Source: an uncultured Muribaculaceae bacterium
GTDB taxonomy: Bacteria > Bacteroidota > Bacteroidia > Bacteroidales > Muribaculaceae
Length of the DNA stretch: 64,000 bases
Direction of reading: 5' to 3'
NCBI GenBank assembly: GCA_905233915.1
Contig: CAJOFM010000007.1
Coordinates: 1-64,000 of the forward strand
In this document: in pieces, positions 12,945-18,196 of the stretch
Layout: each line of letters starts with the position of its first letter
Position numbering within the stretch: the stretch's first letter is position 1
Made by a program: the position numbers and the translations under genes
Notes under the pieces: generated by a model
Told to the model about the DNA's origin: nothing
The model's input: the letters and a program-made list of their open reading frames with translations, nothing else
Database searches by the model: none

Positions 12945-15233
12945 TCACGGCAGGTTCTCCTTGACCCTGGTTGCGAACAGTGCGCCAGGGGTCGTCATCT
13001 GTGTGAGCAGCACAGGCCAATAGAAGGGCGCATCCCTCCAGCCGTTGGCTTGCTTGCCCTCCTGACGAATCATCAACACCACAGGCTTGTCGATGGCCTT
13101 GGCACGTGCGGGTCCCAGATCACTAGTACCATTGTCGGGCGCATTGGTGAAGACGCCGTTTTGCTTGGTACGGCTGGTGTTACGACCAGTGCGTCTGGCC
13201 ACCCAGACCTTGCCATTGGACGATTTGCTGCAGTGCTCTAATATGGCCTTCTGCGCTTCAGGCTCAAGCCGGTATCCTGAGTTCCCATATTTGGAGCCAT
13301 ACACATAGGTGGACTTGATCTTCTCCAGAAGAACCAGGAGGTCATCAACCGCCATCTCGATGAAGCCATTGGCATCGGGCGTGCCAGCCTGAAAAGCAGC
13401 GTCAAGTTGTGCATCAATGTCCATGATAGCTTTCCCGATCGTTCGCTGGCTACCCGTTTGGATGCCTCTTGCGAAGTAGCGCATCTGGGGCTTCACAGCG
13501 AGGATGTCTGAGACCATGACCTTGTTACCGGCGCAGGGGCGGATATTGCTGGCTGCACCGAGAACCTGGACCTTGAAGGGCTTACCCGTCCCCGTGCTCC
13601 CCAGCTGCTCCCTCAAGTACTCGTCCAAATAATAGACGTTCTTGAGTTGATTATAGATATCGGGTGATGTGTAGAATCGCGTGACTGCCATGTCCTCCAA
13701 GGGGCGCGCACCGAACATGCGTTGATGCTGCGTTACCGTGTCCTGCTGGAATGTCAAGGGACAACGGCCATAAACGAAACTCAACAGATTCCTTATGGTA
13801 ACGCCTCTATCGAGTATATTGCCGCCGATGAAAATATTGACGGCAGCATCAAGTCGGAGCTCACCAGTGCTCTGGTCAAGCAGTGCATATACGTCGTTGT
13901 CACTGTTGACTACTCTGACGCAATGGTTGCTCGAGATAAAGATGTCCTGTATCTCATCAAGTACATCATCAAATGTAGGGAACGGGACAGTGATGAACTT
14001 CTGATTGCGAGCTTTCTGGCTCGACGCAGCAAAGTCATAATAACCCTGCTTCAGCATGTCCTCTACATCCTGGGACAGTGAGCCAGTTGCAAAGGGCTTT
14101 GTGAGGAAGCGCATAATGGTGCTCACAAGATTGGCTTGCCCATTGTGGTAGACCTTCTTTATCTGGGTATGGACGATCATGCTCGACTTGAAGTCCAGGC
14201 CTTTGGCGCGCTGCTGGATGCGTCGGATAGCAGTACCGGCCAGATACTGCCCGATAGCGAAGATGAGTTCTTCGTCGTTGCCTTGACCGCCAGCCAGCAG
14301 GTTGATGGAGTCTTGGCCGAGAGGACGATACAAGTGACTAAACATAGAGTTGGGGTCACTCGACTCATCAAAATATTGCTTGCCGCCAATATAAGCATTG
14401 TGCATGGGCACGAGGCTCACAAATCGGGGGCGGATACTCTTGATGCGCTTGTTGTCCAGGACGAGTTCCCCATCAGGCTGCAGGAACAGGTTGTATGGTG
14501 TGGCTGTTACCAACAGTACCCTGTGGTACTTGAGCAACTTGCGGAAATCGTTGATCTGCTTGCCGATTGTTGCCACCTGTGTCACGCATTTGGGCACCTT
14601 GCCTTTAGGAGTGGTCTTGCTCTTGCCAACCTTGTAGCTGCGTGAGGCGTAATCCGCCTCATCGTCAATGATAAGCACTTTCTTGTCCTTCATGAATGGA
14701 CAATCCGTCTTGAACAACTTGATGAGAGCCTTCAGATTGTTGACCTCTTTTTTGCAAACGATAATCAACTTGCTCTTGTTGACGTTCGCTTGAACGAGCC
14801 CGGTTTTGCGCAATGCCATGATATCGTGGATTTCCACGGTGGCCGCCTGGTTGAGGTTGCTCGACGGCTTGAGAGGAGCGAAGTCCTGCTGAAGCCTGCT
14901 GAGCGTCTGCTTGGCGAGGGCGTTGGTGCCCTTGGTGAACAGCACCGCAACATCAATGCCACGGTCACAGCACAAACCTATGATGTGCTCAAACGTGTCG
15001 GTTTTGCCGCCTTGGACATATCCCAGCAGCAGGCCAGGGTCCTCGGCGTGAGGTCCATTATCGAGTAACTGCTTCACAGTGTCCTCGATGCACTTGCGTT
15101 TGTCGGCTGTTAACGGGTACTTGGCATTCGCTTGCAACTCATCGTAGATAGGGGTTGCAGACTTTTTTACGCCAGCCGTCTTGGCCGACGGGGACGAGGC
15201 CCCAAGACTATTTCTACTATAACTTTTAGTCAT
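12945..15233 (-). CDS. Z1-domain ATPase / putative restriction nuclease
   Basis: This 762-aa protein has the hallmarks of Z1-domain (PF10593-type) proteins: YVQGGKTDT as P-loop (residues 73-78), IIDDEADYAS as Walker B (190-194) and LLVTATPYNLF as motif III (242-246). A second helicase-like lobe contains GGNILDRGVTIRN. Z1 proteins occur in defence islands with methylases, HATPases and PD-(D/E)XK partners and are thought to be NTP-driven restriction factors. Here the neighbours are a DUF5131 protein and a DUF3853-like regulator. The first 30 residues are Ser/Lys-rich and probably disordered. A structured RNA copy sits upstream at 15302-15428. Confidence 0.85.
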   Translation of the reverse strand: MTKSYSRNSLGASSPSAKTAGVKKSATPIYDELQANAKYPLTADKRKCIEDTVKQLLDNGPHAEDPGLLLGYVQGGKTDTFEHIIGLCCDRGIDVAVLFTKGTNALAKQTLSRLQQDFAPLKPSSNLNQAATVEIHDIMALRKTGLVQANVNKSKLIIVCKKEVNNLKALIKLFKTDCPFMKDKKVLIIDDEADYASRSYKVGKSKTTPKGKVPKCVTQVATIGKQINDFRKLLKYHRVLLVTATPYNLFLQPDGELVLDNKRIKSIRPRFVSLVPMHNAYIGGKQYFDESSDPNSMFSHLYRPLGQDSINLLAGGQGNDEELIFAIGQYLAGTAIRRIQQRAKGLDFKSSMIVHTQIKKVYHNGQANLVSTIMRFLTKPFATGSLSQDVEDMLKQGYYDFAASSQKARNQKFITVPFPTFDDVLDEIQDIFISSNHCVRVVNSDNDVYALLDQSTGELRLDAAVNIFIGGNILDRGVTIRNLLSFVYGRCPLTFQQDTVTQHQRMFGARPLEDMAVTRFYTSPDIYNQLKNVYYLDEYLREQLGSTGTGKPFKVQVLGAASNIRPCAGNKVMVSDILAVKPQMRYFARGIQTGSQRTIGKAIMDIDAQLDAAFQAGTPDANGFIEMAVDDLLVLLEKIKSTYVYGSKYGNSGYRLEPEAQKAILEHCSKSSNGKVWVARRTGRNTSRTKQNGVFTNAPDNGTSDLGPARAKAIDKPVVLMIRQEGKQANGWRDAPFYWPVLLTQMTTPGALFATRVKENLP

Positions 15234-15301: not shown

Positions 15302-15428
15302 GGGCTTGTCGGAGGATGCGCGACTCGCCCGTGAATAAAAAACTCCGCATCGAGCTTGACTAGCTGCTGCCTTTAAGTTGGGCAGTAGCCCCGTTGTTGA
15401 CGGCACCAGGCCGTGAGATCATTCAAAC
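15302..15428 (-). ncRNA. Structured intergenic RNA, copy 1 (leader of the Z1 gene)
   Basis: On the minus strand this element begins with a domain shared with the copy at 16266-16415 (15362-15422): GATCTCACGGCC, a 5-bp ACGGC/GCCGT hairpin with a variable loop, a GGGC/GCCC hairpin, then CCCAAC and GGCAGCA. Two hairpins follow. AGCTC/GAGTT (with one G-U) exposes the 6-nt loop GATGCG (15346-15351). GGGC-GTCG/CGAC-GCCC exposes CGCATCCTC, in which CGCATC (15315-15320) is exactly complementary to the first loop. The Z1 ATG lies 68 nt downstream. Strand is inferred from gene orientation; base composition does not decide it. Confidence 0.55.
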
Positions 15429-15475
15429 CTACTAAATCAAGTCGTTGGGGTTGTGTGCCCCCTTGAAACTGTCGA

Positions 15476-16231
15476 TTAGTAGTTCGCGCGCGGCGTCGGA
15501 TAGTTGTGGTATACCACGCCATCCAACAAGTGACCGTTAGCTATCTTGTTACCACGCTGGCCCTTCGCATTGAAAGCACCCCACTGTTTAAAAAAGAACT
15601 CAGTGCCACTTACACGAGCGAGATCGCGCAAGTTCAGAGCCCAGTCTTTTTGCATTGGGCGAGCCTGAGGACCACTTTCACCACCCACTACGATCCAATC
15701 GATGTTTCGGAGGTCAAGACCCAAAGTAGCCAGGTCGTCGAGGCATGGCTCAATGCTCAACCAGCGAACAGGAGCAGCGATGTTGCGCAAGTCATCCACT
15801 CTGGTGAGCGACCTCTTGCAGCCACACGTAACACCAAGCCATGCGTTGGCCGGGCAACGGTGCGAGGTGAAGTAGCTGGCCATACGTGCACTGCGCTTGG
15901 TCAGGATCTGGTAAGTGATCCAGGGTGTACGTTCAACGACGTCAAGAACTTGGTCGATAAACGACTCAGGAACGTCGGCGTGGAACAGATCACCCATTGA
16001 GGGCAGGAAGCACAGGAGCTCCTTGTTAGGGTCCGTAGCCAACGGCTCATTCAAAGCATCGGGGTGGCACGTCACCTTGAAGCCGTTGCTGTAGCGCGGA
16101 TTACCCATAGCTTGCAGGCGCTTAGCAAATGCCTTGGCATAGCAGTGGTCACACTCCTCAGTACCAGCATGTTGGCACCCAGTTACGGGGTTGAAGCTAA
16201 ACTCAGTCCAAGAAATAGAAGTTCTATTCAT
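15476..16231 (-). CDS. DUF5131 (phage Gp37/Gp68) family protein, radical-SAM-like
   Basis: The 251-aa protein has the family's N-terminal signature SWTEFSFNPVTGC followed by a three-cysteine cluster (C19, C27, C30, in GCQHAGTEECDHCYA), consistent with an Fe-S or zinc site like that of radical-SAM-type barrels. Further family segments are LPSMGDLFHADVPESF, TYQILTKRSARM, WLGVT and WIVVGGESG. DUF5131 proteins are widespread in phages and mobile elements; their biochemical role is not established to my knowledge. Here the gene lies between two copies of the same structured RNA, in line with Z1. The association suggests a defence or element-maintenance module (inference). Confidence 0.9.
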   Translation of the reverse strand: MNRTSISWTEFSFNPVTGCQHAGTEECDHCYAKAFAKRLQAMGNPRYSNGFKVTCHPDALNEPLATDPNKELLCFLPSMGDLFHADVPESFIDQVLDVVERTPWITYQILTKRSARMASYFTSHRCPANAWLGVTCGCKRSLTRVDDLRNIAAPVRWLSIEPCLDDLATLGLDLRNIDWIVVGGESGPQARPMQKDWALNLRDLARVSGTEFFFKQWGAFNAKGQRGNKIANGHLLDGVVYHNYPTPRANY

Positions 16232-16265
16232 ATATCTATTTCAATTTCACGGGTTTAGGTTAATA

Positions 16266-16415
16266 GATAACGTGTATAGGCCTTATCGTCATAGAGGAAC
16301 CACCCTATACAATGGTTCCAGGTGCCAATACGTCAAGGATCGTAGTGCTGCCGTTTTGGTTGGGTGGCAGCCACCCTTGGTTGAGAACGGCGCTAAGGCC
16401 GTGAGATCGTTGCAA
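16266..16415 (-). ncRNA. Structured intergenic RNA, copy 2 (leader of the DUF5131 gene)
   Basis: The domain shared with copy 1 lies at 16344-16409 (minus strand): GATCTCACGGCC, ACGGC/GCCGT hairpin, GGGTGG/CCACCC hairpin, CCCAAC, GGCAGCA. Two hairpins follow toward the gene. GGAACCA/TGGTTCC (7 bp, 16296-16302 with 16313-16319) has loop TTGTATAGGG. GATAA/TTATC (16266-16270 with 16283-16287) has a 12-nt loop containing CCTATACA. The loops are complementary over 8 bp (16273-16280 with 16304-16311), giving a kissing interaction. Stem and loop sequences differ from copy 1 while the architecture is kept. The DUF5131 ATG is 35 nt beyond. Confidence 0.6.
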
Positions 16416-16432: not shown

Positions 16433-16810
16433 TTAGCTGGCGCTTTTACGCTTGTTCCACCTGAGTTCCTCGCAGTCCTTCAACTGTTCAAGTACCAGGT
16501 CGTAATCAAAGAGTAACACCTTCCCTGCTCTAATCACAGCAGGTGACGCCAGCGTTGCCGAAGGACCAGCCAGCCATCTGCTCACGGTCGAGACAGATAC
16601 ACTCAACGCGCGGGCGAGTTCCTTCTTCCCGTGGAGCAACTTCTTGTCTTTCGCCTGCACGGGTGAAGACTTCTCGGCTACAGCAACGTCGACGGCGTCG
16701 CGGATAAGGCTGGCGATTTCTTCGCCAGTCATGTCAACCACTCGTTTGCCGAGCAACTGATCGTTTATGATATTTTTCTTCGTTTTCATCGGTTTCCATA
16801 TCGGCAACAA
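16433..16810 (-). CDS. DUF3853-like helix-turn-helix protein
   Basis: The product is 125 aa, or 117 if it starts at the internal ATG (MKTKKN), which is likelier. It contains GKRVVDMTGEEIASLIRDAV, then an HTH-like segment KKELARALSVSVSTVSRWLAG and a strand/helix finish KVLLFDYDLVLEQL. This pattern is that of DUF3853, a small DNA-binding family common in Bacteroides mobile elements (excisionase- or regulator-like). It heads the minus-strand group DUF3853-DUF5131-Z1 and could bind the palindrome at 16948-16965 upstream of it. It may be a repressor or excision factor; its family placement is by motif recall. Confidence 0.65.
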   Translation of the reverse strand: MLPIWKPMKTKKNIINDQLLGKRVVDMTGEEIASLIRDAVDVAVAEKSSPVQAKDKKLLHGKKELARALSVSVSTVSRWLAGPSATLASPAVIRAGKVLLFDYDLVLEQLKDCEELRWNKRKSAS

Positions 16811-16979: not shown

Positions 16980-17082
16980 GGTGAATATGTATAGGTAAAG
17001 GGCTGTGTGACGTTTGTACGGTGATCTGTGACTTGGCCATTGCATTAGGGCTAACATCATTATTGCGTGATGGTGCCATTGA

Positions 17083-17114
17083 TTTGTGTTTATGATGAAA
17101 AAGCATTATCTTTG
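17083..17114 (+). promoter_or_regulatory. Promoter for the orphan gene at 17139
   Basis: TTTG (17083-17086), a 20-nt spacer and TATCTTTG (17107-17114) match the Bacteroidota -33/-7 consensus. Transcription would start near 17121, which fixes the true start codon at 17139 and excludes the upstream in-frame GTG/ATG codons around 17067. Confidence 0.75.
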
Positions 17115-17138
17115 CATCACGAAAACACAGTTATAACT

Positions 17139-18077
17139 ATGAGTAAAAGAAATGTTGAATCCGCAGCAATGGAGAAACAAGACACGTTGTTGGCAGCCCT
17201 TCAGGGTATACTTGATGAGCGGCACGATGATATGTGCATGTTTAAGTTGGAGTCTATGTGCTATCGACTGAAGTGTGCGATTATCGACCACAGCTTGAAA
17301 TTGCCTTCATTGTCTGCGTTCCGGTACTATGTCAATGGAATCACATCTGCAGACCAACTTGCTGTTGTCGCGGAAATGTTGCACGATTGCTGGATCTACT
17401 CTACATTGGAGTTCTATGATAGGCCGATAAAAAAGACTTTCAGATTCGATGATACTAATTTAGGGGAACACGGCAACGACTTGAATGAGAATAAATACTT
17501 GAATATACTTCACGAAAAGTATAAAAAGGTGTATTTTTTTCAAAGCAGGGCACCTAAAGACTATGAGACTTACCTTGTTGAGTTACACTCTATCGTCACA
17601 GAATTGGGCCGTAAATTTAACCTGAAGATTGACGAGAGATTTGTGCTGACTCCATTTTTGGACACCAAATTGAATTTGCGCACGCTGAGGGAAGTGTATG
17701 ATTATTTGGTAAATCAAGGATGTCTAGAAGCTGGTAAGCAGAATGATTTTGTTAGCATATTTAATGTGTCAGTATTAGCTTTACCGGCCAAGTTGAGATG
17801 GTTAAAAAAGGCGAAGAGAACAAATAAAACGAGTTTCTTCTGTCTGTTAAGTCTGATGAGGATGTTGTCAAGTGATGCTGTTGAGGATACCCAAGTGAAA
17901 ACAGTTATTGCTACCGTTTTCTCTGAAGAAGATGGTACGCCGATTAACGTGGAGCAATTGAAGGAACGCAACGTGAGCCCTGAGCAGAGGCTATTCGACA
18001 ATGATATCCAGAATATCATATCGAAGCAAGTACCGGAAGGTCAAAAGGGGGGTACATTGGGGGGAAGCACCGAGTAG
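17139..18077 (+). CDS. Orphan protein of unknown function (312 aa)
   Basis: The gene is AT-richer than the core genes to its right and has its own promoter. The product is soluble-looking and mainly helical, with no signal peptide, membrane span or recognised motif. A middle segment (NLGEHGNDLNENKYLNILHEKYKKVYFF) and a basic stretch (LPAKLRWLKKAKRTNK) are visible, and the tail is Gly/Ser-rich. It stands alone between the Z1 group and the tRNA, as island cargo. The start was chosen from promoter position. Confidence 0.65.
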   Translation: MSKRNVESAAMEKQDTLLAALQGILDERHDDMCMFKLESMCYRLKCAIIDHSLKLPSLSAFRYYVNGITSADQLAVVAEMLHDCWIYSTLEFYDRPIKKTFRFDDTNLGEHGNDLNENKYLNILHEKYKKVYFFQSRAPKDYETYLVELHSIVTELGRKFNLKIDERFVLTPFLDTKLNLRTLREVYDYLVNQGCLEAGKQNDFVSIFNVSVLALPAKLRWLKKAKRTNKTSFFCLLSLMRMLSSDAVEDTQVKTVIATVFSEEDGTPINVEQLKERNVSPEQRLFDNDIQNIISKQVPEGQKGGTLGGSTE

Positions 18078-18085
18078 AAATAAAA

Positions 18086-18112
18086 ATAAGTGACTGAAAA
18101 TCAGCCACTTAT
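18086..18112. terminator. Bidirectional terminator between the orphan gene and tRNA-Ala
   Basis: ATAAGTG-CTGA pairs with TCAG-CACTTAT with one mismatch and an AAA loop. On the minus strand it is followed by a T-rich run (TTTTTATTT), which would end the tRNA transcript. It also closes the plus-strand gene. Confidence 0.6.
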
Positions 18113-18123
18113 AAGATCCATTG

Positions 18124-18196
18124 TGGAGCATAGCGGACTCGAACCGCTTACCTCAACACTGCCAGTGTTGCGCTCTACCAGATGAGCTAATGCCCC
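18124..18196 (-). tRNA. tRNA-Ala (anticodon GGC)
   Basis: The 73-nt cloverleaf begins GGGGCATTAGCTC and has a D-arm, an anticodon stem CAACA/TGTTG with loop CTGGCAG (anticodon GGC), a T-arm GCGG-TTCGAGT-CCGC and acceptor end ATGCTCCA. CCA is not encoded. Its 3' end faces the accessory region at 1-18077, a typical integration side. Confidence 0.95.

Follow-up and report, generated by a model that had tools for sequence, protein, structure and literature searches.

A hypervariable, structurally conserved RNA-like element with complementary hairpin loops heads the cargo genes of gene arrays in one genus of Muribaculaceae

The window analysed here, a 64,000-nt stretch of contig CAJOFM010000007.1 (positions 1 to 64,000) from an uncultured Muribaculaceae bacterium, carries a minus-strand gene array in which a structured, RNA-like element occurs twice. 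The array is headed by a DUF3853 or helix-turn-helix (HTH) gene (16433..16810; Pfam PF12964, 2.5e-13). It is followed by cargo 1, which encodes a DUF5131 protein, a radical-SAM relative (15476..16231; PF07505, 9.4e-85; TIGR04471, 1.2e-17, under its cut-off), and by a gene at 12945..15233 (PF10593, 1e-21; MzaC-like, under its cut-off). Element copy 1 occupies 15302..15420 and copy 2, the leader of the DUF5131 gene, 16266..16408. Both are read on the minus strand, where the motifs named in an earlier sequence-only reading were found at the positions it had given. Scored with R1, a model of the two window cores, and R2, a model of six fuller copies, copy 1 gave 73.4 and 74.2 bits, being in the training set of both. 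Copy 2 gave 88.6 bits with R1, in whose training set it was included, and just 20.6 bits with R2 and 16.3 bits with R3, both of which were made without it.

Each copy comprises, in order, hairpin P1, an H-type pseudoknot and two kissing hairpins, A and B. In copy 1, P1 (ACGGC-CTGGT-GCCGT, 15400..15414), which is the module seam described below, precedes a pseudoknot at 15363..15392, in which GGG (15390-15392) pairs with CCC (15380-15382) and GCTACTG (15383-15389) with CAGCAGC (15363-15369), with one A-C mismatch. Hairpin A (15340..15357; stem AAGCTC/GAGTTT) has the loop GATGCG (15346-15351), and CGCATC (15315-15320) opens the loop of hairpin B (15302..15330; stem GTCG/CGAC). In copy 2, P1 (ACGGC-CTTAGC-GCCGT) is located at 16387..16402 and the pseudoknot at 16347..16376, with GGG (16374-16376) paired to CCC (16362-16364) and GCTGCC (16366-16371) to GGCAGC (16347-16352). 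Its hairpin A (16296..16319) has 7 bp and the loop TGTATAGG (16304-16311), and its hairpin B (16266..16287) has 5 bp and the loop CCTATACA (16273-16280). The GGG/CCC pairing of the sequence-only reading is present, but the second hairpin seen there is part of the pseudoknot, which had been overlooked. As that reading stated, the loop sequences of the two copies are unrelated and the loop-loop pairing is kept in both. Its failure to recognise a known RNA family was also borne out: only tRNA reached an Rfam gathering score in the window, and none was reached in loci L338 or L370, the best permissive match having E=2.7.

The observation of a structured element with complementary loops was confirmed. 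When letters were shuffled within the loop pair, complementarity gave p=0.017 for copy 1 and p=0.012 for copy 2. Values of p for the nine distinct loop pairs lay between 0.002 and 0.135, and a mismatched pair taken across classes attained a run of 7 when G-U was allowed, so that loop pairs by themselves are just suggestive and the pairing claim rests mainly on relatives. Helices were assigned by hand in 18 elements. Two hairpins were present in 16 of these, and all 16 have a complementary loop run of at least 5 (G447_solo has 4 Watson-Crick pairs, 6 with G-U). The loop-loop helix was 100% paired across 13 distinct copies in the alignment, a G-C/A-U switch included, and this helix was absent from the model that built the alignment. 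Pseudoknot helices 2 and 3 were 80.5% and 94.9% paired in the aligned copies, with two pairs and one pair, respectively, altered on both sides, and stem S2 occurs in four versions among the hand-assigned elements. Judged from sequence, the predicted fold has the features of an H-type pseudoknot, namely stems S1 and S2, a short loop L1 and a longer L3 on one strand, with paired changes. Paired changes in the pseudoknot, kissing and stem helices exceeded those in shuffled and slid controls, and elements of unrelated sequence share the architecture.

R1 turned up further elements within the window's genus, where it matched 10 of 101 genomes; four were accepted, the remainder being L319-L324, of which L319 looked coding by eye. 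R2 gave matches at E up to 0.05 in 12 of the same 101 genomes. Nine were accepted (G000, the genome of the window, G410, G440, G442, G444, G447, G449, G486 and G487), and the weak matches in G469, G403 and G423 and an extra one in G000 (C2) looked like coding DNA by eye. The figure of nine in 101 is a minimum, because the models R1-R3 are biased towards some element classes and strict filters were applied when many genomes were scanned. No convincing element was found in 393 genomes of the order or 198 of the family with R1, or in 87 of the family with R3, some weak matches being unread. R1 matches L286, L327, L331 and L333 from these searches (E 0.005-1) looked like coding DNA by eye, and the R3 family match G025:C14 had the appearance of a plain hairpin; R3 gave four further family matches at E 0.026-0.088. 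On at least 238 core-pattern loci R3 found no element better than E=0.02, and with L129 added it gave four weak matches at E 0.02-0.09 (L089, L235, L229, L243). The single match of another core-pattern scan, L250, was inside an open reading frame (ORF). The search of other genomes proposed by the sequence-only reading yielded relatives in the genus and none that convinced in the wider family or order, and convincing copies are so far confined to one genus by searches biased to some classes.

In nine loci of this genus the element belongs to arrays consisting of an HTH or DUF3853 gene and then two or three cargo genes, each with its own element directly 5′. The sequence-only reading had placed the element ahead of the Z1 and DUF5131 genes; copy 2 does lead the DUF5131 gene, but other cargo genes are headed too. 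The element is about 105-143 nt long, and runs from P1 through the pseudoknot and usually two kissing hairpins; a spacer, mostly AT-rich, then leads to the start codon. A short type of 58-59 nt has P1 and the pseudoknot with no assignable kissing hairpins (L368:8662-8724, L369:4889-4947). The same element class was found before unrelated proteins: DUF5131 or leucine-rich repeat (LRR), radical-SAM or LRR, and DUF5131 or radical-SAM. Two adjacent copies in G447 have identical loops. A tyrosine integrase with Phage_integrase, SAM_5 and Arm-DNA-bind_5 matches and a weak XerD match occurs in five of the nine loci; it is complete at the head of G447, G442 and G440, whereas G486 and G487 open, at their contig edge, with only its 3′ end. 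No relative of it was found in the window, in the rest of its genome, or in the stretches of G410, G444 and G449 examined. The HTH gene of G447 is excisionase-like, under cut-off. DUF3853, the type of the integrase and the promoter box all suggest a Bacteroidales setting.

Pairwise comparison of loci showed that blocks of similarity begin or stop at the element. Where the upstream gene is shared and the cargo differs (three pairs), identity was 96, 87 and 91% over the 45 nt up to the 5′ arm of P1, and 40, 43 and 73% over the 25 nt that follow. In three pairs with different upstream sequence and the same cargo, the corresponding values were 60, 56 and 52%, then 96, 84 and 76%. A fourth same-upstream pair, after DUF5131, gave 66 and 72% with no clear seam, and the window and G449 diverge within DUF3853. 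The arms of P1 are nearly constant and its loop is variable. These alignments show that element and gene modules have been shuffled, the seam lying at the 5′ arm of P1. Recombination separates element from cargo as well, since the short element retains 98% identity over 100 nt past the seam ahead of two different cargo genes (G449, G444).

Some other features were noted at these loci. Some first-position elements are followed by an ORF of about 44 codons that extends across the start codon of the cargo gene (in G440 and G444; L370:6665-6810, L368:8490-8620), and a stretch resembling it also lies 3′ of the element in G449 and G447. By eye, a promoter-bearing stretch of about 120 nt stands in two tandem copies upstream of the HTH gene in L338 (280-520). 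A lone element in L337 (1573-2225) lies between a radical-SAM gene fragment and an apparently truncated cargo gene, and adjoins the truncated start of a 166-aa gene that also flanks the G447 and G486 arrays. In the window, a 336-aa gene without Pfam match (17067-18196) adjoins tRNA-Ala; G449 (L369) has a 335-aa counterpart beside tRNA-Ala, and G444 a different gene at tRNA-Arg.

We favour, with a probability of about 0.5, the reading that gene cassettes carry the element as a structured 5′ leader, which acts in cis. Each array would yield a single message whose promoter lies upstream of the HTH gene; within that message, each element would set a defined fold or a processing point with a cis effect on the downstream gene, and may insulate or control the translation start of that cargo. 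P1, with nearly constant arms and variable loop, would offer modules a matching seam for recombination. The ordinary, nested minimum free energy z-scores weigh against a structured element, being weak at -1.83 and -1.92 for the window copies and -0.57 on average over 19 elements. They would suit an ordinary repeat family, or an intergenic spacer that is conserved but has no structural function, with similarity due to recent shuffling alone, as would the restriction of convincing copies to a single genus; the paired changes above both controls and the common architecture of unrelated sequences make this very improbable. The sequence-only reading, which had proposed a cis-regulatory leader, a partner RNA of Z1 or DUF5131, or a mobile-element RNA, is supported in part. 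The leader is favoured, and a self-standing or processed RNA working in trans, for example as partner or guide of a cargo protein, is improbable: the fold is compact and well-defined and the loops of the window copies are unrelated, but single element classes head two unrelated proteins each, in the combinations of DUF5131, LRR and radical-SAM given above, and the adjacent G447 copies have their loops in common.

The alternative that we regard as possible, if doubtful, is a folded single-strand DNA recombination site, a counterpart of attC. Cassettes would be joined at its P1 by a tyrosine recombinase, and the pseudoknot and kissing hairpins would present or mark the strand. It agrees with the junctions between modules, which in most comparisons fall at the 5′ arm of P1, with the inverted arms of P1, nearly constant although the loop between them varies, with the integrase genes at five loci and with the excisionase-like gene of G447. 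However, no integrase relative was found in the window's genome or in the stretches of G410, G444 and G449 examined, and G025, G028 and G113 have such relatives without an element in the stretches examined. The element was found solely 5′ of genes, attC boxes are lacking (see below), and homologous recombination at common motifs would yield an identical seam. A non-integron gene-capture system, in which the joining strand is folded, exchange takes place at the first hairpin and the transcribed structure doubles as leader of the captured gene, seems unlikely.

The element was not found under any name in the portions of the literature searched. The recombinase-associated acquired interbacterial defence (rAID) loci of Bacteroidales are described as runs of short immunity genes in one orientation, accompanied by a tyrosine recombinase and by intergenic motifs that are conserved (PMC12247911). 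The arrays here seem to resemble them in the tyrosine recombinase of some loci, the co-oriented accessory genes and the conserved intergenic element. The rAID values of GC below 41% and about 100-300 codons differ from those here: none of 14 cargo stretches is below that GC (range 0.43-0.54), and the cargo measures 251-765 aa, 12 of 14 exceeding 300 aa, with G444_LRR2 entered in out-of-frame coordinates. H-type pseudoknot 5′ leaders occur in several riboswitches and regulatory leaders, and the element shares their short first loop, longer last loop and site just 5′ of the start codon; unlike them, it has hypervariable stems, extra kissing hairpins, unrelated downstream genes and no Rfam match. 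If it is no more than a leader, it would still make a new structured family with compensatory variation built in, well suited to tests of loop-loop pairing. In integron cassette arrays, exchangeable genes that share one orientation and apparently lack promoters of their own are linked through structured attC sites, and the arrays here likewise link such genes through a structured element. Boxes of the attC type (RYYYAAC ... GTTRRRY) were found in none of 18 elements scanned on both strands; in contrast to attC, the element stands 5′ of its gene with a pseudoknot and kissing loops, and by family-level matches the integrase is of generic phage-integrase type. Hypervariable yet structurally conserved, the element is tied to the way in which one genus shuffles accessory genes, probably of defence type, and if cassettes are both joined and expressed through it, it would represent a second bacterial route to gene arrays besides integron attC.
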